DNA from: a bacterium
Lineage (GTDB): Bacteria > Armatimonadota > UBA5829
NCBI GenBank assembly: GCA_021373255.1
Contig: JAJFTD010000051.1
Coordinates: 1-32,076 of the forward strand
Direction: 5' to 3'
DNA: 32,076 nt
The stretch's first letter is position 1. Each line of letters opens with the position of its first letter. The position numbers and the translations under genes are program-made. This document shows, in pieces, positions 4,896 to 19,427 of the stretch. The notes under the pieces were generated by a model. That model searched no databases. It was not told the origin of the DNA and saw nothing but the letters and a program-made list of their open reading frames with translations.

Positions 4896-5573
4896 TTACT
4901 TTACGACGATCCTCTGGTCCTCGCGCACGATTTTCCTGCAGCCGCCTTCGTGACTCTTGGACCAGTCATGCATCGGCGCGGGCTCGAGAATGCGGTCGAG
5001 CTGGCCGATTGCCTTAAGGCGATCATAGATGAGTTGCCAACCGCAGTCGGTATCCGGTGAGACTTCGCACTTACCGTCGCGCGCGCCACCGCACGGGCCG
5101 TTGAGCAGGCTCTTGGAGCAGCGGGTAATCGGGCAGACTGCGCCATATTCGCCCAGCACGCACTTTCCGCACGCCGCGCACTTCTCAGTCCATATGCCCT
5201 GCTCCTGTAGGATGCCGATGAACTTGGTGTCCAGACCGGCATAGACCGGAGTATTCGGGAACCGTTCGGCCATAGCCTGCACGCCCGCGCCGCATGCCAG
5301 CGACAGCACCGCGTCTACGTTCTGAACGTTTTCGATAATCTGCTCCATGAACTCATTTTCGCACTGTCGCTCGATGGTGAGCTCCAGAATATCGTGCTCC
5401 TGCTCGTCCAGCTTATACGCGATTCTCAGGGCCGAGCTGATCATGCCCACTTCGCGCTCACCACCGGCGAGACACACGGTAACGCACGTCCCGCAGCCGA
5501 GCACCAGTATTCTCTTGTGCTGTGCCAGAAGTGATTTCAAATCCTGTATATTCTTGCGATGCGCAACTATCAT
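4896..5573 (-). CDS. metV: MetV, zinc/Fe-S C-terminal-type partner subunit of methylene-THF reductase
   Basis: 225 residues matching the methylene-tetrahydrofolate reductase C-terminal (MetV) family. The first half has LVLGCGTCVTVC (C27, C30, C34), and the second half a dense cysteine block CAACGKC (C132, C135, C138), then CPITRCSKSLLNGPCGG. In acetogens MetV binds MetF and is thought to pass electrons from Hdr-type partners to the MetF flavin. Its start overlaps the mvhD stop by 4 bases (ATGA), showing translational coupling. It is the last gene before a strong terminator, while its partner metF lies 12 kb upstream in the same operon, so the intervening genes are probably expressed with the complex. 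Confidence 0.9.
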   Translation of the reverse strand: MIVAHRKNIQDLKSLLAQHKRILVLGCGTCVTVCLAGGEREVGMISSALRIAYKLDEQEHDILELTIERQCENEFMEQIIENVQNVDAVLSLACGAGVQAMAERFPNTPVYAGLDTKFIGILQEQGIWTEKCAACGKCVLGEYGAVCPITRCSKSLLNGPCGGARDGKCEVSPDTDCGWQLIYDRLKAIGQLDRILEPAPMHDWSKSHEGGCRKIVREDQRIVVK

Positions 5574-6010
5574 CTTGATATCCCCTCAAGGACCTTCGCA
5601 GCCTCGCGTCTCAGCGGGTTAGGCCCCAGTTTCTTGATACGATCGGTCATAGTCACAACGATATCGGCAAATGTCTGCCCCATGGCTGAAGACAGATTGA
5701 ACATTTCCAACCTGTCTTTTTCCAGACCGATCTCGTCCATCAGGTCACGTACCAGCCCCACACGCTTCTTTGCGCGGAGGTTACCCTCCTGGAAGTGACA
5801 TCCGCCCTCAAGGCATCCGGCAACTATTACACCGTCCACCCCAGCCTCGAAGGCTTTCATAATATATTCTGTGTCCACCTTGCCCGTGCACGGCAGGCGC
5901 AGCACCCGCACGTTGGGGGGATACTGTGCGCGCATGGAGCCTGCCAGGTCGGCGGCGGCATACGCACAGTAGTGGCAGCACAGCGCCAATATCTTAGGTT
6001 CAAAATCCAT
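5570..6010 (-). CDS. mvhD: MvhD/FrhD-type hydrogenase iron-sulfur subunit (copy 1, full cysteine set)
   Basis: 146 residues from ATG at 6010, chosen because GGAGG lies 9 bases upstream and the ATG overlaps the HdrA stop (TAATG). The ATG at 6016 has only 3 bases spacing, and the longer open frame beyond it is out-of-phase HdrA coding. Cysteines C11, C12, C15, C41, C66 and C71 lie in CCHYCAY, LPCTGKVD and GCLEGGCHFQEGN, the pattern of MvhD, which holds a [2Fe-2S] cluster and delivers electrons to HdrA. Family length is about 140. No hydrogenase is encoded nearby, so here MvhD probably links HdrA to another donor or acceptor, as in the Moorella MetFV-HdrABC-MvhD complex. Confidence 0.9.
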   Translation of the reverse strand: MDFEPKILALCCHYCAYAAADLAGSMRAQYPPNVRVLRLPCTGKVDTEYIMKAFEAGVDGVIVAGCLEGGCHFQEGNLRAKKRVGLVRDLMDEIGLEKDRLEMFNLSSAMGQTFADIVVTMTDRIKKLGPNPLRREAAKVLEGISR

Positions 6011-9000
6011 TAACATGTTCCTCCCAGCAGCGCTTCGATTGCGCCTTCCACCTGCGCGTCCATAAAGTGCTGGAGTTGAATAGCCTTGGCGGGACACGCC
6101 GCCGCACAGCTTCCACAGCCCATGCACTTGGCTGCCTGCACCTCTACACGGTTCTTGCCGTTGAGCGTGCTCACCTCCGGCGCGCCGTAGGGACATACCT
6201 TCATGCAAGTCAGGCAGGATACGCACTTTCTTGTATCTACTCGGCTCACCTGGCCGCCCACGACCATTGTCTTCTTGCTCAGAATGGTCGCTGCCCGGCC
6301 TGCCGCGGCTCTCGCCTGCTGCATATTCTCGATGGTAGTCTTCGGAGAATGAGCGCTTCCGCAGAGGAAGATGCCCTCTGATGCGAAGTCCACTGGCCGC
6401 AGTTTGACGTGCGCCTCAAGGAAGAACCCGTCATTGTTCAACGGAATCTTCGCAAGCTCGGATACCTCTTCGTTATCCAGGGCCGGGGATGTCCCTGCTG
6501 AGAGCACGAGGAGATCAATGTCCAGGTTCACCGGCATCGCAAGCTCAGTCTCCATAAACTTCAGCTTGAGCTTATCACCACCAGCTACTTCAGGCGGGTT
6601 CTCCGGAGCGTATCTCAAGAACAGCACGCCCATCTCGCGCGCCTTCTGATAGAACAGCTCGTTCATACCGTAGGTCCGCATATCGCGATAGAGCACAACC
6701 ACCTTCGCGTCCGGCCGCATTTCCTTGATGCGAATAGCGTTTTTCACTGCATCTGTGCAGCAGGACCGGCTGCAGAACGGCCTCTGCTCGTTGCGCGAGC
6801 CTACGCACTGGATCATAGCGACAGTCGGCCTTGCAGGCAGTTCACTCACTGCTGCAATTCGTGCCTCGAGCTCACGCTGAGTGAGGATGCGCCTGTCCTG
6901 TCCGTAGAGATATTCGGTCGGCTTATACTCGATTCCGCCGGTTGCCACCAGCAGAGCGCCGTGGCTGATCTCCACCGTTCCCTCAGGAGTCTTAACCTCG
7001 CTGATAAAATGCCCGACATGCCCGGCTAGTTTAGCAACCTTGGCGCTCAGATATGTCTTAATGAGTGGATGATTCTCCACATCGGCTGTGAGTCGATCTC
7101 GTAAATCGCCGGAGGCCAATCGGCCACTAAGGCTGCTGGACTTCTCAATCAGGTTCACCATATAGCCCTGCTTCGCCAGCGACAGAGCAGCGGTCATACC
7201 ACTCGGCCCACCGCCGATCACCAGAGCGGACTGCACAACGGACAGTTCTTCGGTCATAAGCGGGGTCAGTCTTGCGGCACGCCCCGTGGCCATTTTTACA
7301 AGGTCGATTGCCTTGTTAGTTGCTGCATCAGGCTCTTGTGAATGCACCCACGAACACTGGTCACGAATATTTGCCATATCCACCAGGAACGGGTTCAACC
7401 CGCACTCCCTGGCAGTCTCGCGGAACAGAGCTTCGTGAGTTCTTGGAGTACATGATGCCACCACCAATCGGTTCAGGTTATGCTCTTTGATGAGTTCCTT
7501 CATTCTGTCCTGAGTGTTGTCGGCGCACACGTATACGGCGTTCTCAGCATAAGCCACAAACGGCATATCCTTTGCGGCTTCGACCACCTTTTCCACATCC
7601 ACCACACTGGCAATGTTAATCCCGCAGTGGCAGATGAACACACCGATGCGCGGTACGGCGTCGGCGAGATCCTGTTCTTTAGGATACTGCTTGTCTGCGA
7701 CCATAGTGCCGCGTGCGGGGGATAGCAGCTCCATCGCCATAGCCGCTGCTGCGCTGGCTTGGGTCACTGTCTCAGGGATATCTTTGGGCTCCTGGAACGC
7801 ACCAGCGACGAACACACCTTTGCGGCTCGCGGCCACTGTGGCGATTTCGTCGGACTTGCAGAATCCACACGAGTTGAGTTCGATACCAAGGATTCCGGCA
7901 GTGCGGATAGCTTCGTCGCTGGGCCGCATACCCGTGGAGAGCACGACTATATCGAACTCCTCATCCACCGGCTTGCCGCCTTTGATATATGACAGCCGCA
8001 GGCTCTTAGACCCCGGCATCTCAACTACTCGCGAAACCAGACTCCGCTCGAAGTGCACTCCACCGTTCTTCGCGCGCTCGTAATAACGATCAAAGTCCTT
8101 GCCGAACGCTCTGATGTCGGTGTAGAAAACGGCTACTTCCAACCCAGGCGCGTGGTCCATCGCTATTACTGACTCTTTAATCGCCGCCATACAGCACACT
8201 GAGGAGCAATATGCGCGATTATTAGCGGCGTCACGGGAGCCAACGCACTGGATAAACGCTATCTTCTTGGGCTCTTTGCCGTCGGAAAGACGCTGCAGGT
8301 GGCCATTATACGGGCCACTGGCGGACAACAGCCGCTCGAACTGCACGTTGGTAACTACATTATCATAGCGCCCAAAGCCGAACTCCCCGCGTTGGGTGGC
8401 GTCAAACTCATCATAACCCGGCGCAAGAAGCACTGCGCCTACTGCGAGGTCGCGGTAGGTGTCCTTCATATTGTGATCGATTGCCTTAGCAAGGCACGCC
8501 TTGACGCACTCGCCGCACTCGCAGCAGATACCGCAGGCCAGGCATCGCCCAGCCTCGGCCATCGCCTGCTCTTGGTTATAAGGCCCATGTTCGACGTCAG
8601 GCTTAACCCTTGCGCTCTTGAGTCTCTTCTCACGCTTGTGAGTAAGCTCAAGCTGCCTGTGTTGCTCATCGGTCCAAACGCGGCTGTCTGCAGTTCTGTC
8701 ACCGACCATATCTTCGCCATTTATGAACCTGTCAATGGACTCAGCCGCACGCTTGCCTGCGCCGACTGCTTCACTGAGTGTGCCTGCACCCGCGACCACG
8801 TCACCGCCCGCGAAAACGCCGGGCTTATCTGTCGCCAGGGTGACAGGATCAACGCTGAGCAGCCCCCACTTATTCGCGCAAAGCTCACTGCCTGTGGCGA
8901 ACCCAAGGTCCACTTTCTGGCCGGTCGCCATAATTGCATCATCACACTGGATAATATGCTCAGAGCCCTCTACCGCCACAGGACGTCTGCGGCCCGATGC

Positions 9001-10404
9001 GTCACGCTCATCGGATAGCTTCATGCTCAAGCACTCGATGCCGGTGAGCTTACCGTTCTGGCCGACGAACCTCTTGGGGTTGGTGAGGAAGACGAACTTC
9101 ACGCCCTCTTTGATGGCGTCCTCTACTTCCACAGGGTCAGCGGGCATCTCGCGCTTGGTTCTGCGGTAGATTATGGTTACGTCTTTCGCACCGAGCTTAA
9201 CAGCGGTCCGGGCGATATCCATGGCGGCATTTCCAGCGCCAATCACGGCAACCTTGCTGCCGATCTGTACCTTCTCACCGAGGTTAACCTGCTTGATGAA
9301 GTCGATCCCAGGCCGAACGCCCTGCAGATCCTCGCCTTCAGCACCGAGTTCACTGCTCTTCTGTGCGCCCACTGCCGCGAACACGGCCTTGTAGCCACTC
9401 TGGAGCAGACTATCGATTGTGGTGTCGGTCCCTATAGGTGAGTTGCATTTTAGCTCAACGCCCTGGTCGAGAATGTCTTGAATCTGACTGTCCAGCACAT
9501 TGCGAGGGAGTCTAAATGCAGGGATACCGGCACGCATCATACCACCAGGCACCGATGCCGCCTCGAAAATCGTGACCCCGTAGCCCTTTCGGACTAGATA
9601 ATCCGCCGCCGCAAGCCCCGCAGGCCCCGAGCCGATAATCGCAACCTTTTCCGTCCTGGCAGGCTCTTTGCTTTTCGCACTCTGCTCTCCGCTGTTCTCA
9701 ATTACAAATCTCTTCAGATTTCTGATTGCAATGGGCTCACCATAACGACCCTGCTGGCATTCGCTTTCACACGGTCTGTGGCATACATAGCCGCAGATGA
9801 GGGGCAGAGGGTTATCTCTTCGGATAATTTCAGCCGCCTCAGCCAACTTGCCCTGGGCAACCAGCGCAACATAAGCCTGCGGGTTTTGGCCCATCGGGCA
9901 TGCGCTCACGCATGGCGGCCGCTCGTCCTTGGCTATGACATAAGCATTAGGCACAGCCTGCGCTGTTACTTTATGGATAGCAGTATGCTTTGCAAGCCCA
10001 CGGTTGAACGGGTCAGGCACGTGCACCGGGCAAACCTTTTCGCAGTCGCCGCACGCGTTGCACTTGTTCACGTCTACGAACCGGGCCTTCTGCTTCAGCT
10101 TAACTTTGAAGTTGCCGGGCTCACCGCTCATGTGCTCGATCTGAGACTGGGGAATGATCTCGATGTTCATGTTTCGAGTGCACTCCACCAGCTTGGGCGA
10201 GATAATACACGTGGCGCAGTCGCCTGTCGGGAATGTCTTGTCGAGTTGGGCCATCTTGCCGCCGATGCTCGGCGACTTTTCCACAAGGTAAACCTTGTAG
10301 CCGGAGTTTGCCAGGTCAAGCGACGCCTGAATACCAGCGACGCCGCCTCCGCAAACCATTACCGCTCCAACCGGGCCCGCACTCTCATCTTTTCTTGCTA
10401 CCAT
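6010..10404 (-). CDS. hdrA: Giant HdrA-GltD-HdrA fusion flavoprotein
   Basis: 1464 residues, GAGGT site 7 bases before the ATG. Order of modules: HdrA-type FAD domain (GGGVAGIQASLDLAN near 18) with FPTGDCATCIISPK and ferredoxin cysteines C115, C118, C121, C125; an inserted GltD/NfnB-like unit about 155-590 with its Cys-rich N-terminal part, FAD loop IGSGPAG (257-263) and NAD(P)H loop IGAGNAAMD (388-396); return to HdrA with a cysteine cluster from C621; then a second HdrA unit with GVFICHCGINIA (C925, C927), another FAD loop VIGGGPSGM near 1065, and C-terminal ferredoxin clusters from C1394 and C1427. HdrA is the flavin-bifurcating core of Hdr complexes. The GltD insert would let NAD(P)H feed or accept electrons directly. 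Ordinary HdrA is about 650 residues, so two HdrA copies are fused here. A purine-rich, low-complexity linker (minus-strand reading of 9662-9699) precedes the GltD FAD domain. Confidence 0.92.
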   Translation of the reverse strand: MVARKDESAGPVGAVMVCGGGVAGIQASLDLANSGYKVYLVEKSPSIGGKMAQLDKTFPTGDCATCIISPKLVECTRNMNIEIIPQSQIEHMSGEPGNFKVKLKQKARFVDVNKCNACGDCEKVCPVHVPDPFNRGLAKHTAIHKVTAQAVPNAYVIAKDERPPCVSACPMGQNPQAYVALVAQGKLAEAAEIIRRDNPLPLICGYVCHRPCESECQQGRYGEPIAIRNLKRFVIENSGEQSAKSKEPARTEKVAIIGSGPAGLAAADYLVRKGYGVTIFEAASVPGGMMRAGIPAFRLPRNVLDSQIQDILDQGVELKCNSPIGTDTTIDSLLQSGYKAVFAAVGAQKSSELGAEGEDLQGVRPGIDFIKQVNLGEKVQIGSKVAVIGAGNAAMDIARTAVKLGAKDVTIIYRRTKREMPADPVEVEDAIKEGVKFVFLTNPKRFVGQNGKLTGIECLSMKLSDERDASGRRRPVAVEGSEHIIQCDDAIMATGQKVDLGFATGSELCANKWGLLSVDPVTLATDKPGVFAGGDVVAGAGTLSEAVGAGKRAAESIDRFINGEDMVGDRTADSRVWTDEQHRQLELTHKREKRLKSARVKPDVEHGPYNQEQAMAEAGRCLACGICCECGECVKACLAKAIDHNMKDTYRDLAVGAVLLAPGYDEFDATQRGEFGFGRYDNVVTNVQFERLLSASGPYNGHLQRLSDGKEPKKIAFIQCVGSRDAANNRAYCSSVCCMAAIKESVIAMDHAPGLEVAVFYTDIRAFGKDFDRYYERAKNGGVHFERSLVSRVVEMPGSKSLRLSYIKGGKPVDEEFDIVVLSTGMRPSDEAIRTAGILGIELNSCGFCKSDEIATVAASRKGVFVAGAFQEPKDIPETVTQASAAAAMAMELLSPARGTMVADKQYPKEQDLADAVPRIGVFICHCGINIASVVDVEKVVEAAKDMPFVAYAENAVYVCADNTQDRMKELIKEHNLNRLVVASCTPRTHEALFRETARECGLNPFLVDMANIRDQCSWVHSQEPDAATNKAIDLVKMATGRAARLTPLMTEELSVVQSALVIGGGPSGMTAALSLAKQGYMVNLIEKSSSLSGRLASGDLRDRLTADVENHPLIKTYLSAKVAKLAGHVGHFISEVKTPEGTVEISHGALLVATGGIEYKPTEYLYGQDRRILTQRELEARIAAVSELPARPTVAMIQCVGSRNEQRPFCSRSCCTDAVKNAIRIKEMRPDAKVVVLYRDMRTYGMNELFYQKAREMGVLFLRYAPENPPEVAGGDKLKLKFMETELAMPVNLDIDLLVLSAGTSPALDNEEVSELAKIPLNNDGFFLEAHVKLRPVDFASEGIFLCGSAHSPKTTIENMQQARAAAGRAATILSKKTMVVGGQVSRVDTRKCVSCLTCMKVCPYGAPEVSTLNGKNRVEVQAAKCMGCGSCAAACPAKAIQLQHFMDAQVEGAIEALLGGTC

Positions 10405-10409
10405 ATCAT

Positions 10410-11267
10410 CTACCTCGCCAGTATCGCTGAAGGGTCTACCATCAGTTTGTTGATCCCAAGCGCGGCATCGGGTATTCCGAGCGCGTGTCCCAGGAGCTGA
10501 GTGAAGTAGAACACCGGCAGTCCGATCTTTTCGCCCGTTGCTTTCTCTACATCCGCCTGCCTGAGGTCAAGGTTCGACTGACAGAGCGGGCACGCGGCGA
10601 CTATGCAGTCCGCCCCGCTCTGTTTCGCCATGCGGAGAATGTCCCCGCTCAAGCGTTCTACTGTTTCAGTGCGGGTGATCGAGAAACTTGCTCCGCAGCA
10701 CTCCGTCTTGTAAGGCCACTCCACAGGCTCCGCACCCGCCGCAGCCATTATGTTGTCCATCAATTGAGGGTCCTCGGGATCGTTGAGGATACTCAGTTCT
10801 TTGGGCCTGGTGAGGAGGCATCCGTAGTAACAGGCCACCTTGAGCCCACTAAGGCTCTTCACCACACTGTCCTTGATCTCAGAAAGCCCGATATCTTCGT
10901 TCAAAACTTGCAAGAAGTGCCGGATCTTCAATCCTCCCGCATACTCCCTGCCGGTAATCTCGGCAACTTGAGCCCGAAGATCAGCATTTTCAGCCAGGGC
11001 AACGTTTGCGCTTGCCAACCTGCTGTAACATGACGCGCAGCAGACTACCACATCTTTGCCCATATCCTGTGCAATGGCCAGGTTTCGCGCGGGCAGCGAT
11101 GCCGCCAGCAGCGAATCGGTGGCGTGAGCCGGTGTGGACCCGCAGCAGGACCAATCCGGTATTTCCTCCAGCTCGACTCCCAGAGCCTCGGCTACTGCGA
11201 GTGTTGACATCCGAAAATCACCGGCGGTCGATTCCATCGAGCATCCGGGGAAGAAAGCATACTTCAT
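10410..11267 (-). CDS. hdrB: HdrB, heterodisulfide reductase subunit B
   Basis: 285 residues with the two CCG domains that bind the non-cubane [4Fe-4S] pair in HdrB. Domain 1 spans about residues 9-80 (FFPGCSME, DWSCCGSTPAH, CCASCYSRL) and domain 2 about 147-237 (YYGCLLTRP, TECCGASFS, AACPLCQSNLD). In methanogens HdrB reduces the CoM-S-S-CoB heterodisulfide; in bacteria the disulfide is often unknown or the subunit serves as an electron relay. It overlaps hdrC by 4 bases and stops 5 bases before the hdrA start. In the MetFV-HdrABC context it probably sits between HdrC and the rest of the complex. Family length is normal. Confidence 0.93.
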   Translation of the reverse strand: MKYAFFPGCSMESTAGDFRMSTLAVAEALGVELEEIPDWSCCGSTPAHATDSLLAASLPARNLAIAQDMGKDVVVCCASCYSRLASANVALAENADLRAQVAEITGREYAGGLKIRHFLQVLNEDIGLSEIKDSVVKSLSGLKVACYYGCLLTRPKELSILNDPEDPQLMDNIMAAAGAEPVEWPYKTECCGASFSITRTETVERLSGDILRMAKQSGADCIVAACPLCQSNLDLRQADVEKATGEKIGLPVFYFTQLLGHALGIPDAALGINKLMVDPSAILAR

Positions 11268-11827
11268 CGCTTTGCCCTCCGTGCGCGCACCTTATCGAAA
11301 ATTGCTGATACCGACTTCGCGGCCCTTGTGCGAGGTGGGAAGATCTTCATCTTTCCCTTGAGCAGCATTGTCGGGAACTTGGCCAGGTCGCTGAAAAGGT
11401 CGCGAGCGCGCATTTTGTAGAAGCCCATCATACCAAGCTCATACACCCGGCCGAACTGCTTCATAGACTTGAGCATCTCATTATTAAAGATATTTATCTT
11501 CTCAAGATCCTGCGACGGCGCTGTTTGAGTCATCTCGCGGAGCTTGTCCACGAGGGCGGGGGTGTCCACCTTCATTGGACAGCGCGATACGCAGGTGTGG
11601 CATGAGACGCATGTCCATATAGCCTTGCTCTTCAGCAGCTCATCTTCCATTCCCATAAGCACCATCCGGTTCATCTGGTGGGGGAGGATGTCTGTCTCCA
11701 GCCGCATTGTGCAGCCGGCGGAGCACCTGGCGCACTGCAGGCACGATGCCAGGTTCAACTTCCCCTCAGGGTCGAGCTTTTCGAGGAGCCCCTGGTTTAC
11801 TGATGTTATCGTAGCCGGGTTATTCAT
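11264..11827 (-). CDS. hdrC: HdrC, ferredoxin-like subunit of heterodisulfide reductase
   Basis: 187 residues with two classical [4Fe-4S] motifs, CLQCARCSAGC near 29-39 and CVSCHTCVSRCP near 73-84, followed by a helical, basic C-terminal tail typical of HdrC. It should carry electrons between HdrA and HdrB. It overlaps the preceding glutaminase/GXGXG gene by 8 bases and the following hdrB by 4, so the glutamate-synthase and Hdr parts are translationally linked rather than merely adjacent. Confidence 0.93.
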   Translation of the reverse strand: MNNPATITSVNQGLLEKLDPEGKLNLASCLQCARCSAGCTMRLETDILPHQMNRMVLMGMEDELLKSKAIWTCVSCHTCVSRCPMKVDTPALVDKLREMTQTAPSQDLEKINIFNNEMLKSMKQFGRVYELGMMGFYKMRARDLFSDLAKFPTMLLKGKMKIFPPRTRAAKSVSAIFDKVRARRAKR

Positions 11828-14447
11828 CTGATTCCTCGTCGTTGTTCATCACATCATCGTCCGCCGCGGTGGCTGCTGCAGCGGCGACTTTCTTCTGTGC
11901 CGGGGCAACCTTCCGGTAGATCTTGCTCGGGTCCATCTCGGTCCCGTCCACAGTAAGCAGCCGCGAGACAGGGATATCAAACAGTTGCTCGTTCTCTTCA
12001 AGATACGGCTTGATAAGTTGCCAGTCCGCATCAGTGAGTTCGTAATACTCGCCGCCATTGAGCTGTTCGTTGTCCAGCGTCATGTGTGGGTCGCGCACGT
12101 AAATCGCGCCGCCCGATGCCAACGAGAACAGGTTGGAACCCGAATATGGCGTATCCAAGTCAATCACGCTGCCGTCTTCATCAAGTCGCACGCCGTTGAG
12201 TATAACGAACCCGCCGCCATTAAGTGGATCACCGGCCATGAACGACTCAGCCAGAAAGTCCAGGCAGGTGCCGTTAATAGTTACCCTTGGCCGTCCTACG
12301 GAGTTGATCAACGGTCGCCCTGCGGCGTTGCCCTTCACATACACGGTGCCGCCCTTCGCGCCATACATGAACGTCTGCCCGACGTCCCCGTGCACTACCA
12401 ACCGGCCCTCTCTCATAATTTGAGCGAGCTGGTCCTGTGCGTTACCGTGCACTGTTACTGTTGCGCCGTCCAGTCCCGAAGCCAGGTAGTCGCCGGTGCT
12501 GTCGTAGGCATCAATTACACAACCCTGCGAATCCGGCCCAAGGCCGACACCAAGGAATCTCTGCCCCACATAACCGTGGCAGATAAACTGCTTCCAGCCC
12601 AGCTCGTAGGCTTCATAGACCACTCGCGCGTCGCACTCGTCACCCTCGGGTGGGAAGTCGTGACCGTTTACGACCAGCACTTCCTCCAGCCCATTGGGCG
12701 CCCGGAGCATGCCCCTGGTCTCCCAGTCGATCCTCGCATATTTTGATGCAGCCTCACCCGTAATCGACGGTACTCCACCCAGCACCGCAGCCAGAGCCTT
12801 GTTGACAGCCTCAACTATGCGACCTCGCTGGTTGGGACCGGTCTGGTAGCGGCGGTCGATCATCAGCGTGAAAGCGTTAATAGCAGCCGCCCGCTCGGGG
12901 TCAGTCTTCGCGCTCTCGGCCACGCGAGTGCAGAAAGCCTTAAAGTCCTCCAGGGACATCCCAGCCGATGCGGATCTGAGCACCTGGAACAGCGACCACC
13001 CGCTCACATCAGTCAACGCACTGGAAATCCCCTGCACGGCAGACGCAAGCTCCACCGGGTCTCCAGTTCTCTGCTCTCTGCTCTTAGCTCTCCGCTCCCT
13101 GCCAAACTTATCAGTGCAGTTCAGCTTATAGGTGCCGTCGCCCTGGTGTTTGACTGTGAACATGAACGACCCGCCGTCGGTGTAGCTGCCGCCGCGAGCA
13201 TTCCAATAATCGTCCGCTACAGTGCAGAACCGGCTGTCCTCGCAGGCAAGGCTTGCAAGAGTGGCATCAATCGCCTGCTTTTCAGAGCAAACAAGGCCGA
13301 TCTGCACCTCACCATCCTGCAGCGCAAAAACCTGAGGCCGGAGCATGGCGGTGTCGGTGATTCCCAGGAGCTGGAACGCATCGTTTTCGACATCGTTGCG
13401 GGCGATGATGAAGAACCATGGCCCGTCCGGCGACGCATGAATGTGTCCCTGCTGAATCCTGCGGTAGACTTCCTGTTTTTCTTTGGGAAGCATATCGAAG
13501 TCACGCTCGCTCGTAGGCGCCAGACCCTCGATTATGTATTCCAGCGGGTACTTGTAAACGCGGTTCCACAAGTCGAACACCAGAATTGAGACCTCAGTGT
13601 CCGTGAGGAACAGCGGCTTGATGTTGCGCTGGGCGAGGTATTCACATACGGAATAGTAGTTCGCGAAGTCGCCGTTGTGCACCAGGGCCTCGTTCATCCC
13701 GCAGAACGGGTGCGCGCCGCCAGGGTGCCACACGCGGCCTCTAGTTGGATAGCGCTGGTGGGCGATCCATACATGTGCCTTGAAATCGTCGAGCTGATAA
13801 TAATTTACGATCAGTTCAGCATAACCAACGATCTTCAATATGATCATATTGCGGCCCTGCGACATCACAAAGGCCTGCTTGTCACCCAGCGCTGCATAAT
13901 ACTGGGTGTTGAGCGCGAAGGCGTTCTGATACATGAACTCTTCTTCTATATCACGCTCGCCGAGTCCCACAAGCCCACGCTCCTGCGCGAACTTCGCGAG
14001 CACGTCCTTCTTCGGCTTTACAAAGTATCTCTGGATGTCCGGTGGCCTAACGTCCAGCCCGTCTATCTCCCGATAGTCCTCAACGTGCGGCACGCTCTGC
14101 GAGTGGTGCACATCGAACATCGGCGTCACGAACTCCGCTTCCACCGTGTTCAGGCACTTCGGGTCCAGCAGAGCTATCTGTAGGATATAGTCGTTATCCA
14201 GTATCTCCCGCGTCACACCCATCTGCTCCGGCACCAGACCGACCGCTGCTATGCCGCCGCCCTTGCCGTTGCCACGGTTGTGCATCTGGACTGATGGCTC
14301 ATATATATGCTTACCGCCCACGGGTATGCTGCACGCAAACCCCGTAACGCCGCATCCGCCCTCTTCTTCAGTATGCGCGGGTTCCGACGGGCTCCAGCCC
14401 TCCATCATCCACTGCCTGCTCTGTATCAGTTTATCTGCTATGCTCAT
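11820..14447 (-). CDS. Glutamate synthase glutaminase (class II GATase) + GXGXG subunit
   Basis: 875 residues from ATG at 14447, preferred because AGGA lies 8 bases upstream; a TTG eight codons earlier has no site. After about 31 residues comes GGCGVTGF, whose C32 would be the N-terminal nucleophile of a class II amidotransferase once the propeptide is removed. HQRYPTRGRVWHP and LVHNGDFANYY are the conserved glutamine-binding elements. Residues about 600-800 form the GXGXG beta-helix (RLVVHGDVGQTFMYGAKGG, GNAAGRPLINS). The tail is Ala/Lys then Asp/Glu-rich (ATAADDDVMNNDEESDE). The FMN domain found between these in standard GltB is missing and is supplied by the next genes upstream, as in split archaeal-type or GlxBCD/MgsABC systems. 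Between domains is a purine-rich linker (RRAKSREQRTG) that looks like a repeat inserted in frame. Confidence 0.88.
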   Translation of the reverse strand: MSIADKLIQSRQWMMEGWSPSEPAHTEEEGGCGVTGFACSIPVGGKHIYEPSVQMHNRGNGKGGGIAAVGLVPEQMGVTREILDNDYILQIALLDPKCLNTVEAEFVTPMFDVHHSQSVPHVEDYREIDGLDVRPPDIQRYFVKPKKDVLAKFAQERGLVGLGERDIEEEFMYQNAFALNTQYYAALGDKQAFVMSQGRNMIILKIVGYAELIVNYYQLDDFKAHVWIAHQRYPTRGRVWHPGGAHPFCGMNEALVHNGDFANYYSVCEYLAQRNIKPLFLTDTEVSILVFDLWNRVYKYPLEYIIEGLAPTSERDFDMLPKEKQEVYRRIQQGHIHASPDGPWFFIIARNDVENDAFQLLGITDTAMLRPQVFALQDGEVQIGLVCSEKQAIDATLASLACEDSRFCTVADDYWNARGGSYTDGGSFMFTVKHQGDGTYKLNCTDKFGRERRAKSREQRTGDPVELASAVQGISSALTDVSGWSLFQVLRSASAGMSLEDFKAFCTRVAESAKTDPERAAAINAFTLMIDRRYQTGPNQRGRIVEAVNKALAAVLGGVPSITGEAASKYARIDWETRGMLRAPNGLEEVLVVNGHDFPPEGDECDARVVYEAYELGWKQFICHGYVGQRFLGVGLGPDSQGCVIDAYDSTGDYLASGLDGATVTVHGNAQDQLAQIMREGRLVVHGDVGQTFMYGAKGGTVYVKGNAAGRPLINSVGRPRVTINGTCLDFLAESFMAGDPLNGGGFVILNGVRLDEDGSVIDLDTPYSGSNLFSLASGGAIYVRDPHMTLDNEQLNGGEYYELTDADWQLIKPYLEENEQLFDIPVSRLLTVDGTEMDPSKIYRKVAPAQKKVAAAAATAADDDVMNNDEESDE

Positions 14448-14490
14448 AATCCAAGTCCTATGAAAGGTCAAAAGGTCAAAAAGTTATAAG

Positions 14491-14689: not shown

Positions 14690-16228
14690 CTAGGCTTCTT
14701 CGTAATCCAGATGCCTCAACAAATCCGTCCGGCCGCGCAGTTCCTTCACATCGCTCATCCCGAACCTGCTCAGGATGTCTACCAACTGCAGCCGCCACGC
14801 GTGGAGCATGTTTATCAACCTCTGAGTGCCCCACTCGATATCCATCTTCTTGACCATCTCGGCGTCTGTGGTCGCTATGCCGCGAGCGCAGCCTTTGCCG
14901 CTCTCGCACTTTCCGCAGCGGATGCATCCCAGGGCCACCATCTCGGGCGTGCCGATCACTACTCCATCAGCGCCCAATGCAATCGCCTTAGCCATATCCC
15001 AAGGGGTCCGAATGCCGCCACTGACGATCAGCGTCACTTCGTCGCGGATTCCCTCTTCCACCAGGAACCGCGCTACCTTGGGGATTGCATACTCGATAGG
15101 CATTGCAATGTTCTTCTTTGCAATGTCAGGAGCCGCACCCGTTCCGCCGTAGCTGCCGTCGAGGTGGACGATATTCGCGCCTGCGAAGTATGATCCTACT
15201 GCGACCATGTCAACGTCGATAGGTGTAGAGACTTTTGCCGATACCAGCGCGCGCGGGTTAACGTGCCTTATCCAGTCCACGTGTTTTTTGTGGTCTTCGA
15301 TTGAGTAGACGCTGTGGAATGGGAATGGCGAGAATAATGACGTTCCCGGCACTGCACCGCGCATCGCCGCAACCGCAGGTGTGTTCTTATCTCCAAGCAG
15401 GTGGCCGCCCAGTCCCGGCTTCGCACCCTGTGCATATTTAAACTCGACTATGCGCGCGCGGCGGATTGTCTCCTCACGCACACCAAAGAGCCCCGTGGCA
15501 ACCTGCGTGATCATGTGATCTTTGTAAGGAATCAATCGGTCGATGTAACCACCCTCACCTGTGCAACTGAAGATGTTCCACGCCGTCGCCGCACGAGCTT
15601 TGCTCAGGATTGTGACTGGGCTTACCGATCCGAACGACATTCCTCCGCCGTATACCGGCAGGTCAATGGTGATCTTAGGCCGCCCGTCTTCCCTGCGATT
15701 CAAGGGAATAGCTGTGCTGATCTCGTCCGGGTTTGTGCGCTGGCCGTTCTCGGGGAACTTAAACCGTATCTTGTCGAACCCACCGCCGGAGTTGCCGACC
15801 TCGCTTTCGAGTTCACCTTCAGGTAATTCTCCGGTCTCGGCCATGTGCCAGGTCGAGAGAATCAAGTCAGCCGTCCAGCGGAAATCGCCCAATGATTTAT
15901 AGAGCGGGAGCACTTCTGTGCGCAGCGCCTTTTGAGGGCAGTTGTCCACGCAGTAGGTACCGTTCTTCTTGCATGTTTCCGCTGTGCACTTGGATTCTAG
16001 CGGGCGAACGAACCCCGCGTAGCCTTCGGGCCGCACGTGAACGCCGTTTGGACATATCTCCGCACACTTGCCGCACTTCTTGCACAGCTCTTCGTAGCGC
16101 CACACCCGATATTTGCCGAGCTGGTTGCGCCACCGGTCCGGCGCGGGCTTCACTTCACGCTTCGGTACCGACAGGCCAAGGTCGTGGTCGGGTCTTATGG
16201 GTCTGTGCGGGTCAACAGTTATTGCCAT
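14690..16228 (-). CDS. gltB: Glutamate synthase FMN/Fe-S subunit with N-terminal ferredoxin domain
   Basis: 512 residues from ATG at 16228, set by GGAGG 7 bases upstream and 2 bases after the preceding stop. The N-terminus has ferredoxin cysteines (CKKCGKCAEICPNG, then CTAETCKKNGTYCVDNCP). The rest is the FMN-binding TIM barrel of glutamate synthase: GGGMSFGSVS, NIFSCTGEGGY, GAKPGLGGHL, HLDGSYGGTGAAP, SGGIRTPWDMAKAIALGADG, then the [3Fe-4S] motif CIRCGKCESGKGCARGI. All expected landmarks are present, so it should be the active 2-oxoglutarate amidating subunit, taking ammonia from the GATase encoded downstream and electrons from its clusters. The 242-base gap to the GATase gene is filled with repeats. 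Confidence 0.9.
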   Translation of the reverse strand: MAITVDPHRPIRPDHDLGLSVPKREVKPAPDRWRNQLGKYRVWRYEELCKKCGKCAEICPNGVHVRPEGYAGFVRPLESKCTAETCKKNGTYCVDNCPQKALRTEVLPLYKSLGDFRWTADLILSTWHMAETGELPEGELESEVGNSGGGFDKIRFKFPENGQRTNPDEISTAIPLNRREDGRPKITIDLPVYGGGMSFGSVSPVTILSKARAATAWNIFSCTGEGGYIDRLIPYKDHMITQVATGLFGVREETIRRARIVEFKYAQGAKPGLGGHLLGDKNTPAVAAMRGAVPGTSLFSPFPFHSVYSIEDHKKHVDWIRHVNPRALVSAKVSTPIDVDMVAVGSYFAGANIVHLDGSYGGTGAAPDIAKKNIAMPIEYAIPKVARFLVEEGIRDEVTLIVSGGIRTPWDMAKAIALGADGVVIGTPEMVALGCIRCGKCESGKGCARGIATTDAEMVKKMDIEWGTQRLINMLHAWRLQLVDILSRFGMSDVKELRGRTDLLRHLDYEEA

Positions 16229-16230
16229 TT

Positions 16231-17616
16231 CTATGCCTCCACAGCCTTGCGCTGTCCAAATACCGGGCCGAAGCACTCGCGCTCCAGGTCGTCGAAGAAC
16301 ATTGCTCTGCCGACCTCTCCGCGCAGCCTCCGTGCCTCGCGAATGCCCATAGCGCCCATCATTTCAAGCATTTGGCTGTGCCATGCGGACATCAGGTTTA
16401 CCATCCTCTGCACTGCGTAGTCGTGATCCACATCCGCAAGGCCGATAGGGCACAGGATGCCCTTGGTGCAGTTCTTGCAGATCCTGCATTCTAATGCGAC
16501 CATCAACGGCACGTCCGCGCAGATCAGGTCCGCGCCACAGAGCAATGTCTTTATAACGTGCTCGGCCAAGGATATACCGCCGCTGGCTATCAGTGTAATT
16601 TCGTCCCTGCAGCCCGCAGCGACAAACGCCTGGTGAATCTCACGCACCGCTATTGATATATGCTGAGGCTTGCCGTTGTTGCCCACGACTCCTTGCCAGT
16701 CGGCGTAGACGTGGAAGGCATCGATTCCCTGCTTCGCCAGTTCCAGCGCTCGTGGTATTGATGCCGATCCCAGCGGCAGTCTCACTATCGCCACCAGGTC
16801 CGGGTTCTTCTCTTTCACAGCTTTGATGCGTGCAACAACATCCTTGCAGTCGCTCCATTGGGCCATGCGCGCCGTTATCGCAGGGTCGTCCTTGGCCTGC
16901 TCGGGGATGTGTGGAATTACACTCTCGCTGCTCATCAGCTTCGGCTCATTGGTTATAGCAAGGGTGCCCAGCGCCTTTGCAGTATCCACAATAGCCTTGG
17001 AAACGTTCACGCTCGGGGCGTGCCATGGCATCATATTGAACAGCACTGGCAGTGGAATTTCCACTTGTGCGGGGAAATCGGTCTTAAGGCTGCCATCAGG
17101 ATTAAACTCCAGCTTCATCGGCTTGCGGCCTATGTCGACCTGGGTGCTGATATATTCGCGACCATGGATTCCGTCGCGGGTAGGGCGGACGATCTCGGAC
17201 ATGTCAGTGAGAATCGAGTCAAACCCCGGCCCTCTGAACGGTCCCGGGTATCCCGCGCCTGAGACGGGTACCTTGGCAGTCTCCGCCTGATACCAGGTGC
17301 TGGATATAATGTCCGCCGTCCATACGTCGTCGCCCATCTCCAGATACTCAGGGTTGACCTGCTGGGTCAGTAGACCCTTTGTACAACTCTGCACACAGCA
17401 CAGGCATCCCTTGCATTCGTAGAGATAGTCCACATAATCCTGCACCGTCTTTTGCAGCCGGTCCCGCTCATCGTTATAAACACTGTAGATGCACTCGCGC
17501 TTGACGCAGTTATGACAGGCGGAGCAGTCCTCACGCCAATCAATGATCGCGTATTTCCCGATGCGCTTATGCTTCGGCGGGGTCGGTTTTGGATGTATAT
17601 GATATTTGGCCGGCAT
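16231..17616 (-). CDS. Divergent glutamate-synthase FMN-domain paralogue with ferredoxin domain
   Basis: 461 residues, AAGGGA site 7 bases before the ATG. It has the same layout as its downstream neighbour: N-terminal cysteines (CSACHNCVKREC, CKGCLCCVQSC), WTADIISSTWYQAET matching the neighbour's WTADLILSTWHMAET, a TIM barrel, and the cluster motif CRICKNCTKGILCPIG. However, the flavin/substrate landmarks are altered: AKPGLGGHL has no counterpart and DGSYGGTGAAP is replaced by YADWQGVVGNNG. It is therefore probably a duplicated copy that has lost or changed catalysis and may serve as a structural or electron-transfer partner. The stop lies 2 bases before the catalytic copy's ATG, so the two are made together. 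Confidence 0.82.
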   Translation of the reverse strand: MPAKYHIHPKPTPPKHKRIGKYAIIDWREDCSACHNCVKRECIYSVYNDERDRLQKTVQDYVDYLYECKGCLCCVQSCTKGLLTQQVNPEYLEMGDDVWTADIISSTWYQAETAKVPVSGAGYPGPFRGPGFDSILTDMSEIVRPTRDGIHGREYISTQVDIGRKPMKLEFNPDGSLKTDFPAQVEIPLPVLFNMMPWHAPSVNVSKAIVDTAKALGTLAITNEPKLMSSESVIPHIPEQAKDDPAITARMAQWSDCKDVVARIKAVKEKNPDLVAIVRLPLGSASIPRALELAKQGIDAFHVYADWQGVVGNNGKPQHISIAVREIHQAFVAAGCRDEITLIASGGISLAEHVIKTLLCGADLICADVPLMVALECRICKNCTKGILCPIGLADVDHDYAVQRMVNLMSAWHSQMLEMMGAMGIREARRLRGEVGRAMFFDDLERECFGPVFGQRKAVEA

Positions 17617-17773: not shown

Positions 17774-18676
17774 TTAACTCTTCGAGAGTCCGTTTGTCTT
17801 GATTATCTCTGCTGCGAGATCGAAATTGGTTCCGGTCATCAGGTGCACGCCGCGCACACCATCTACCTTCTTCAGGTAAGCGACCGTTTCGTTTGCCAGG
17901 TGTATCCCGGCGGCTTTTTGATCTTGAGCAGTCTGCAGTCTATCGACTATATCATCTGTAATATCAATGGTGTTGTTCTTCTCAGAGAGAGCAATGGCTT
18001 CCTGAGCGGAGCTGAGCGGCTTTACCGATGCGATAATGCAGGCCTTCTGGTGAAGTCCGCGCTCGCGCACATAGCTCATCCAGATATTAAACCTGTCGAG
18101 GTTGAAGACTGGTGTGGTGATCACAAAATCTGCCCCGGCATCTACGGCCTTCTGCAGCATAATTACATTGAGCTCCAATGGCTCGGCGAATGGGTTGGTA
18201 TCAGTTCCTAGCAACAGGTCCACAGGCGCATCAATGGACCCACCGTCCGCCAGCTTGCCTTCTTTGCGCAGCGAGTCCGCTACCATCAGCAACTGCACCG
18301 GGTCAATATCGAATACACCCTTGGCCGAACCTGCGCTGGTAAGCGTCTGGTGCCTGCCTGTAGTGCAGAGGACATTTTTAATGCCCATTGAAGCCGCACC
18401 GAGCAGCGCGGATTGAAGCGCTATCCTGTTAAGGTCGCGGGTTAACAGTGCCATCACTGGCTCAGCACCAGCCTGCGCGATATGGCTGCACGCCGCCAGG
18501 CTCGCGAGCCTCACGCCGTCTTCATTTTGTGGTACGTAAAGCGCGTGTACTGAGTCTTTCAACGCGGCCGCGCATGCCTTAAGTCCATCCACACCTGCGC
18601 CACGTGGCGGAGTGCATTCCGCCGTCACAATAAACTGTCCGTTCTTGACCGCCTGGGCCAGAAGCTCTCCCATCAT
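17774..18676 (-). CDS. metF: Methylene-tetrahydrofolate reductase MetF
   Basis: 300 residues, a normal MetF beta8/alpha8 flavin barrel. VTAECTPPRGAG near the start carries E20, in the position of the catalytic Glu of E. coli MetF; NVLCTTGRHQT and FVITTPVFNLDRF are further family blocks. It reduces methylene-THF to methyl-THF in the methyl branch of one-carbon metabolism. Instead of an NADH-only mode, the operon supplies MetV, HdrABC and MvhD, the partners of the acetogen-type complex. The ATG overlaps the stop of the upstream mvhD-like gene (ATGA). The next gene in the operon is 157 bases away across a repeat-filled space. Confidence 0.92.
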   Translation of the reverse strand: MMGELLAQAVKNGQFIVTAECTPPRGAGVDGLKACAAALKDSVHALYVPQNEDGVRLASLAACSHIAQAGAEPVMALLTRDLNRIALQSALLGAASMGIKNVLCTTGRHQTLTSAGSAKGVFDIDPVQLLMVADSLRKEGKLADGGSIDAPVDLLLGTDTNPFAEPLELNVIMLQKAVDAGADFVITTPVFNLDRFNIWMSYVRERGLHQKACIIASVKPLSSAQEAIALSEKNNTIDITDDIVDRLQTAQDQKAAGIHLANETVAYLKKVDGVRGVHLMTGTNFDLAAEIIKTNGLSKS

Positions 18677-19080
18677 CTTGCCATCACTCCATAAGCAGCC
18701 CGGCTGTTTTCTTCAACGAATCGGGCAATTTTGTCTATAGCTGCCATCAGCGCATCTTCTCCAGGTTCGCTGGGCATAATAATCTGCAGGGAATCTGATC
18801 CTACTCCAGCTTCCGCAAGCATTTCTTTAGCGAGTTTGACCCGTCTTGTGGCTCTCAGGTTGCCTTCCATAAGCCTGCAATGGGCAATGGGACATGTGAG
18901 CACGCATACAGCGTGGGCGCCGCCCTCAAAGGCTTTGAGGAGATACCTCGGGTCGATCCTGCCACCGCAGGGAACGGCCTCCAAAGCAACATCATCCATG
19001 AGTCCAAGCCGCTGGAGTTCGTCCGGAACACCGTCTTCAACCACGTTACGGCAGAAGTAGATGCGAATGCCTTTGTTCAT
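18673..19080 (-). CDS. MvhD-like iron-sulfur subunit (copy 2, reduced N-terminal cysteines)
   Basis: 135 residues, AGAGGAG site 8 bases before the ATG. It aligns with copy 1 across IDPRYLLKAFEGGAHAV, then CPIAHCRLMEGNLRATRRVK, and keeps C10, C38, C63 and C68. The CCHYC-type N-terminal cluster of copy 1 is reduced to a single Cys (YFCRNVVEDG). It is the first gene of the operon and overlaps metF, so it probably binds MetF directly or relays electrons to it. Retaining four cysteines would still allow a [2Fe-2S] site, but this is not certain. Confidence 0.85.
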   Translation of the reverse strand: MNKGIRIYFCRNVVEDGVPDELQRLGLMDDVALEAVPCGGRIDPRYLLKAFEGGAHAVCVLTCPIAHCRLMEGNLRATRRVKLAKEMLAEAGVGSDSLQIIMPSEPGEDALMAAIDKIARFVEENSRAAYGVMAR

Positions 19081-19095
19081 GATAATTTCTCCTCT

Positions 19096-19119
19096 GAAAC
19101 GGCGTTTCTTTGCCGTTTC
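19096..19119 (-). promoter_or_regulatory. Perfect hairpin abutting the operon's first ribosome-binding site
   Basis: On the minus strand GAAACGGC pairs with GCCGTTTC around an 8-base loop and is followed immediately by AGAGGAG and, 8 bases on, the ATG at 19080. No T-run follows, so it is not a terminator. It may protect the mRNA 5' end after processing or modulate ribosome access. Confidence 0.6.
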
Positions 19120-19145
19120 TCCCTTCGCGTTCCCCTAACAGACGC

Positions 19146-19181
19146 AAAAAGGGCGTCTCCGCCGCATAAGCGGAGACGCCC
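19146..19181 (-). terminator. Intrinsic terminator within the metF-operon leader
   Basis: A 12-pair GC-rich stem (GGGCGTCTCCGC with GCGGAGACGCCC, 7-base loop) is followed on the minus strand by TTTTT (19146-19150). It lies 65 bases before the first gene. Its 5' arm GGGCG could alternatively pair with CGCCC at 19212-19216 in the preceding hairpin, a possible antiterminator. Confidence 0.85.
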
Positions 19182-19393
19182 TCGTCATTTTTGCTCAAGA
19201 AGCGCACCCTGGGGCGCACATCATCTCAATCGAGCGTATGCACAGGTCACATCATCGGACCTGCCATAAAACACAAAATCCACCCATGGCTACGTTACCA
19301 GGGTGGACTTCACATTGTCCTTCGCGCCGGAGGCTACACCGTCTCCCGCACGACAAAAAACCGCATGGCCCGGCCGTCACTGGCCGTCCATCA
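19146..19393 (-). ncRNA. Structured leader RNA / possible riboswitch or small RNA before the metF operon
   Basis: Expected transcript from the promoter at 19399-19427 to the terminator. Hairpins seen on the minus strand: 19322-19353 (11-pair stem with one mismatch), 19268-19318 (core TCCACCCTGG with CCA-T-GGGTGGA, then a long G-U-rich extension), 19243-19263 (CAGGTC/GACCTG), 19193-19235 (GCTCGA/TTGAGC enclosing a smaller GC hairpin), then the terminator. No protein gene of plausible length occurs; a 10-codon frame beginning ATGCGGTTTTTT is present but lacks a clear ribosome site. I could not match it to SAM, cobalamin, THF, ZTP, glutamine or glycine riboswitches, nor to 6S, SRP, tmRNA or RNase P RNA. 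No separate promoter is visible between terminator and mvhD-like gene, which favours a cis-acting leader over a free-standing sRNA. Confidence 0.5.
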
Positions 19394-19398
19394 ATGAC

Positions 19399-19427
19399 AG
19401 TATGCCTTATGTGAGCTTATGTGTCAA
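19399..19427 (-). promoter_or_regulatory. Sigma-70-type promoter for the leader and metF/hdr/glt operon
   Basis: On the minus strand TTGACA (19422-19427), 17-base spacer, CATACT (19399-19404). The start of transcription would be near 19392. It is the only strong promoter-like pair between the tRNA terminator and the operon. Confidence 0.7.

Follow-up and report, generated by a model that had tools for sequence, protein, structure and literature searches.

The window, i.e., the whole stretch of 32,076 nt that was analysed, carries on its minus strand an operon that opens with an mvhD/FlpD gene and continues with metF, glutamate synthase-type and hdr-like genes (Table 1). A leader of about 310 nt lies between the promoter and the mvhD/FlpD start at 19080. 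Upstream of the leader, a tRNA-Glu gene (19628-19554) is followed by a hairpin and U tract at about 19536-19500, which is probably the tRNA-Glu terminator; because this hairpin and U tract would close the upstream gene, the leader appears to be a separate transcription unit. The TTGACA promoter described in an earlier note on this DNA was recovered by a consensus scan, its TTGAC and the AT box of the -10 element line up across five relatives (alignment A1), and RNA polymerase would start at about 19392 as read off the -10 box. In agreement with that note, the promoter scan found no second promoter. The series of hairpins it had listed was borne out as well: the predicted fold of the leader is strong (minimum free energy -150.1 kcal/mol, z -6.3; 0 of 100 shuffles equally good) and the upstream hairpins pair and covary beyond chance.

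Table 1. Coordinates of the leader elements and of the operon genes in the window, in the order of transcription
Feature	Position	Strand	Remarks
Promoter	19399-19427	minus	TTGACA (19427-19422), 17-nt spacer, CATACT (19404-19399); consensus scan 10/12
P1 hairpin	19371-19386	minus	CGGCC[AGUGAC]GGCCG; A1/G4 hexaloop, C:G closed; stem covaries
P2 hairpin	19322-19353	minus	apical C[GGUGUA]G; stem covaries (both sides changed in 4 pairs)
P3 mini-hairpin, candidate antiterminator	19305-19320	minus	GGAC-AAUGUGAA-GUCC; overlaps T1 5' arm
T1, first intrinsic terminator	19268-19310	minus	AAGUCCACCC...GGGUGGAUUUUGUGUUUU; kept in 7 leaders; -22.4 kcal/mol in the window
P5 hairpin	19240-19264	minus	GCAGGUC-CGAUGAUGU-GACCUGUGC; relatives have a hairpin of other sequence in the same place
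P5b small hairpin	19193-19203	minus	GCUU-CUU-GAGC, 6 nt before P6; triloop in the window, larger loop in relatives
P6 mini-hairpin, candidate antiterminator	19175-19186	minus	GAC[GAGGGC]GUC; overlaps T2 5' arm
T2, second intrinsic terminator	19146-19183	minus	GAGGGCGUCUCCGC...GCGGAGACGCCCUUUUU; -30.6 kcal/mol in the window
Hairpin beside ribosome site	19096-19119	minus	window genome only; absent from G003 and G004
mvhD/FlpD, first gene	18673-19080	minus	ATG at 19080; PF02662 1.6e-19
metF, methylenetetrahydrofolate reductase (MTHFR)	17774-18676	minus	PF02219 2.3e-22
Partial glutamate-synthase-domain protein	16231-17616	minus	PF01645 1e-14
Archaeal-type glutamate synthase central subunit with Fe-S domain	14690-16276	minus	PF01645 1.9e-92
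GATase and GXGXG glutamate-synthase-type protein	11820-14471	minus	PF01493 7.1e-11, PF13522 5.4e-5
hdrC-like	11264-11827	minus	TIGR03290, below cut-off
hdrB-like	10410-11267	minus	TIGR03288, below cut-off
gltD/HdrA fusion	6010-10404	minus	NF040770
Second mvhD	5570-6226	minus	PF02662 2.8e-48
MetV-like C-terminal MTHFR protein	4896-5573	minus	PF12225 2e-36

A nitrogen-related target lies downstream, as the operon holds the sole high-scoring PF01645 glutamate synthase in all leader-bearing genomes except that of the window. The window genome (G000) is alone among them in carrying a second high-scoring glutamate synthase gene (G000:C107:21655-22737), and the upstream stretch of that gene that was examined contains no such leader. 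Complexes of MetF, MetV, HdrABC and MvhD are discussed in the literature for acetogens.

Distribution and covariation of the leader

The leader occurs in nine genomes of one bacterial class, with one copy each. In eight of them it precedes the same mvhD-metF-glutamate synthase-hdr operon, while in G018 it lies at the contig end and the downstream gene is unseen. Seven further genomes of the class (of 28) have close orthologues of the first gene mvhD, and the sequences upstream of these can be aligned with the window. A covariance model (R1) built on the leader's 5' half detected one copy each in G000, G002, G003, G004, G016, G020 and G018 with E values of 8.8e-30 to 2e-18, including G018 (E 7.9e-23) though it was left out of model building; nothing comparable was present in the rest of the 291 genomes of the phylum, with no other match below E 5e-4. 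The two remaining leaders, those of G026 and G027, are divergent: their second half is kept, whereas the first half is barely recognisable.

Covarying helices, as the comparative alignment proposed in the earlier note should reveal for a structured RNA, were present. Across the leaders, 92.7% of cells were paired and seven pairs had changed on both sides as compared to 2.6 in shuffles, a result that beat 500 of 500 shuffles, and slid controls paired at only 34-47%; the relatives are few and related, so that counts over leaders are not independent. P1 and P2 are the covarying hairpins. The stems of P3 (GGAC/GUCC) and P6 (GAC/GUC) are invariant, and covariation is therefore silent on them, for or against. 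The Rfam search, likewise proposed earlier, gave no match to a known trans-acting RNA or any other family: at gathering and permissive thresholds the window yielded a tRNA only and the seven relatives nothing above chance. A further covariance model, R3, matched beyond the leaders, G017 and the glnA region of G016 only antisense to leaders or weakly (E at least 0.001); those extra matches that were inspected turned out to be ordinary terminators, for example after 5S rRNA. Of the stretches examined upstream of the remaining canonical gltB genes in the class, only that in G017 has such a leader.

Tandem terminators and hairpin loops

The earlier note had described one intrinsic terminator. This is T2, which is strong and ends in a U5 tract; T1, which had been missed, lies before it, and the two are conserved in series. 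T1 is terminator-like in every relative that retains the leader's 5' half, with the pattern GUCCACCC...GGGUGGAY-UUU, except in G020, where its tail is different and weaker and T2 is missing. Each terminator overlaps a small upstream hairpin. The 3' strand of P3, whose GGAC/GUCC stem is invariant in seven leaders, is common to the 5' arm of T1, and P6 and T2 share a strand in the same way, so that each mini-hairpin excludes its terminator. Across the leaders, the predicted energies are -17.8 to -25.1 kcal/mol for T1 and -24.7 to -43.4 kcal/mol for T2, but only about -4 kcal/mol for P3 and P6 (-3.9 to -4.8 kcal/mol for P3), and the terminator is the stronger structure in every leader that has both. 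Since T1 and T2 are far stronger than the weak overlapping P3 and P6, the default state would be OFF, i.e., termination. The 12-mer GACGARGGCGUC, which forms P6 and the 5' arm of T2, is invariant in eight mvhD leaders while the 3' arm of the terminator drifts, a pattern that a second role of the 5' arm would produce. Part of this conservation could have another cause, because the 12-mer recurs as the apex of a REP-like palindrome (GGTTTCGGGACGAGGGCGTCCCGAAACAAC) that is dispersed in the genome. Copies of this palindrome occur on contigs C49, C66, C67, C76, C78, C80, C85 and C151 of G000 and also in G016, G005 and G002; the variants GGGACAAGGGTGTCCC and GGGATAGGGGTATCCC carry compensatory changes, and a larger inverted-repeat element contains some of the copies. 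When the 12-mer (GACGARGGCGTC) was followed genome-wide, the other inspected copies were REP-like palindromes, coding or unremarkable, save that in G017.

Other elements vary more. P2 is missing from the G002 leader, and the stem of P5b is GCUU/GAGC within the genus and CUCU/AGAG in G016, G018 and G026, with GAUC[AUAGCU]GAUU as the counterpart in G017. In G016 (contig C122) the gap between T2 and mvhD is about 300 bp, clearly longer than in the other T2-bearing leaders. Two details of the earlier note were retained in part. The window does have a hairpin beside the ribosome site, but the leaders of G003 and G004 lack it. Likewise, the CGCCC proposed to pair with the GGGCG arm of the terminator is present at 19216-19212, but the antiterminator pairing is not conserved, because CGCCC sits in an insertion of about 30 nt unique to the window genome (alignment A1). 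Within 19119-19072 of the window an alternative hairpin, GUUUC[AGAGGA]GAAAU, with A at position 1 (A1) and G at position 4 (G4) of the loop, includes the Shine-Dalgarno sequence, which may be chance.

The hexaloops of P1 (AGUGAC, AGUGGC, AGUGAG, AGUGUC, GAUGGC, AUUGAA, GACGGC), P2 (GGUGUA, GGUGCU, GGUGUU, GGCGAA, GUUGUU, ACCGCA) and P6 (GARGGC) are all closed by C:G and have a purine at position 1 and G at position 4, while most other positions vary. G4 with C:G closure was found in 7/7 P1, 6/6 P2 where present and 8/8 P6 hairpins, and the purine at position 1 in all seven P1 loops. P3 has an 8-nt loop and thus differs from this pattern. Position 1 is A in five of seven P1 loops, one of six P2 loops and none of the eight P6 loops, where it is always G; double hairpins of the strict A1/G4 type were absent from all mvhD leaders scanned. 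Hairpins of the type C-[RNNGNN]-G numbered 20 in eight (related) leaders versus 4.2 in dinucleotide shuffles, an about five-fold excess that was reached in 0 of 300 shuffles, whereas purine-1 loops without G4 were at background (10 versus 8.7) and other loop classes at or nearer to it. The linkers measure 17 nt between P1 and P2 in the window, 9 nt between P1 and P3 in G002, and 5-8 nt between P5b and P6 across the leaders, the P5b loop being degenerate in the window. As judged from the sequences, the loop pattern is the published preference of ANTAR proteins with position 1 relaxed.

ANTAR proteins and ANTAR-type leaders in the class

ANTAR proteins are encoded in 26 of the 28 genomes of the class; as they are nearly universal, their co-occurrence with the leader is uninformative. 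The window genome has two ANTAR genes, on contigs C99 and C105. The C99 regulator is paired with a GAF histidine kinase and has as its closest solved structure 1s8n (E 6e-60), which is Rv1626 of M. tuberculosis (PMC7496416).

About 90 PF00120/PF01645/PF00909 loci (glutamine synthetase, glutamate synthase, ammonium transporter) were scanned strictly, the scan requiring A1 in the first loop, 4 or more pairs, a linker of at most 30 nt and a second hairpin overlapping a terminator. Only four places were found, all directly upstream of glnA (G016, G020, G026 and G027). Both loops have A1 in G016 and G020, and the second loop is GCAGAA in G026 and G027, so that G at position 1 occurs there too. These glnA leaders share the architecture of the mvhD leader but have a single attenuator. 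In G016 the terminator-overlapping hairpins of the two are near-identical, GGAC[AAAGGC]GUCUUC before glnA versus CGAC[GAAGGC]GUCUUC in P6, differing in one loop base and one base-pair position below. With position 1 relaxed, 17 distinct places were obtained in about 2 Mb on both strands of redundant loci. One of these places is a leader in G017 that precedes an archaeal-type glutamate synthase operon and has GAUC[AUAGCU]GAUU, a 9-nt linker, GAC[GAAGGC]GUC and a terminator; several of the others are probably chance. An amt leader in G012 carries AGC[AAAGAC]GCU and AGC[AAAGGA]GCU before a terminator, which matches the published site AGCAANGRRGCUY, and adjoins genes for glutamine synthetase and for an ANTAR protein.

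A probable tandem attenuator of ANTAR-like type

Known ANTAR targets have A1/G4 loops, a C:G closing pair and a second hairpin over a terminator, and include glutamate and glutamine synthase genes (PMC3369931, PMC7496416, PMC8164766). The mvhD leader resembles eutP, eutG, eutS and eutA of Enterococcus faecalis, nasF of Klebsiella and amiE of Pseudomonas in its hexaloop hairpins with C:G closure and G4 (PMC3369931, PMC7496416), in the mini-hairpin strand common to the 5' arm of an intrinsic terminator, and in the setting of several attenuators per system, nitrogen genes and an ANTAR regulator with histidine kinase in the genome. It differs from them in the purine at position 1, mostly G in P2 and P6, in the extra P2 that separates the first hairpin from the one overlapping the terminator, an arrangement that we did not find described, and in two attenuators before an MTHFR-Hdr-glutamate synthase operon. 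Linkers of eut targets are 5-12 nt. The relaxed loop consensus is shared with actinobacterial ANTAR RNAs, in which A1 and G4 are more than 50% conserved and linkers are 2-25 nt (PMC8164766); in few of these is the overlap with a terminator and in many it is with the ribosome site or the start codon (PMC8164766), whereas the hairpins of the mvhD leader overlap terminators. Among the papers listed by a full-text search, none dealt with ANTAR leaders upstream of an operon of this kind.

We consider it probable, at roughly two in three, that the leader mediates protein-dependent, nitrogen-linked tandem antitermination of a variant ANTAR type before the glutamate synthase/MTHFR/Hdr operon. That an attenuator lies before this one-carbon/nitrogen operon, as the earlier note had proposed, is backed by conservation, covariation and the terminator architecture. 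Because A1 is not present in both loops, we term the leader ANTAR-like rather than a certified member; this lowers the label, not the proposed way of working. Polymerase starting at about 19392 would by default stop at T1 or T2. P3 before T1 and P6 before T2, if held in place, would block the terminators with which they share their 3' strands. An ANTAR response regulator, the partner of a GAF histidine kinase, would recognise the C-[RNNGNN]-G loops found in P1, P2 and P6, and its activated dimer on these loops would hold the mini-hairpins so that polymerase passes; a nitrogen-related signal would thus lead to readthrough into the operon. Possible dimer sites are P1 with P2, P1 with P3, or P5b with P6. 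As P5b lacks a hexaloop in the window, P5 or P2 may partner P6 there, or control at T2 may be weaker. In this scheme we infer that a protein binds, which ANTAR protein this is, what the signal is and in which direction the operon is regulated.

The new riboswitch class suggested by the earlier note, in which P1 to P3 would form an aptamer (e.g., for glutamine, 2-oxoglutarate or folate) and T1/T2 the expression platform, seems improbable to us. A conserved, covarying and structured leader with terminators before one metabolic operon per genome and without Rfam match would suit a riboswitch, but the conserved bases are isolated positions in separate ANTAR-type hairpin loops instead of a multi-helix junction core, P2 is missing in G002 and the 5' half has faded in G026 and G027, and the T2 module recurs before glnA and a glutamate synthase operon with loops of the same type. 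An equally small chance is given to antitermination through some other RNA-binding protein whose target loops happen to be alike: mini-hairpins so weak against such strong terminators call for a stabilising factor of some kind and the loops deviate from A1, yet the loop signature, C:G closure and terminator overlap fit ANTAR, and canonical ANTAR leaders are present in the same genomes. The independent small RNA named as the main alternative in the earlier note would end at T1 or T2 and leave the operon to another promoter; its own promoter and two terminators would suit it, but we regard it as very unlikely, because the element is single-copy and lies only directly upstream of the operon in the eight genomes in which the contig allows this to be seen, and neither an Rfam sRNA match nor a second promoter was found. 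Ribosome-mediated attenuation can practically be set aside, since a search across the leaders for the leader peptide that serial hairpins and terminators could accompany gave none with a ribosome site that is conserved.

Returning to tandem antitermination of ANTAR type, a more specific version can be offered only tentatively, namely a three-hairpin ANTAR element with altered loop specificity (position 1 taken by a purine, in most cases G) and two attenuators in series, which couples glutamate synthase to an MTHFR-Hdr complex. If true, this would to our knowledge be the first description of an MTHFR/Hdr operon under ANTAR control. With the first loop position relaxed, it would be understandable that such leaders escape strict searches. 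Taken together, the ANTAR-type reading would add a lineage, a type of target operon and a relaxed loop grammar to what is known of how ANTAR proteins control nitrogen metabolism. It also suggests that nitrogen status may gate an operon in which glutamate synthase is combined with methylenetetrahydrofolate reductase and with heterodisulfide reductase proteins.
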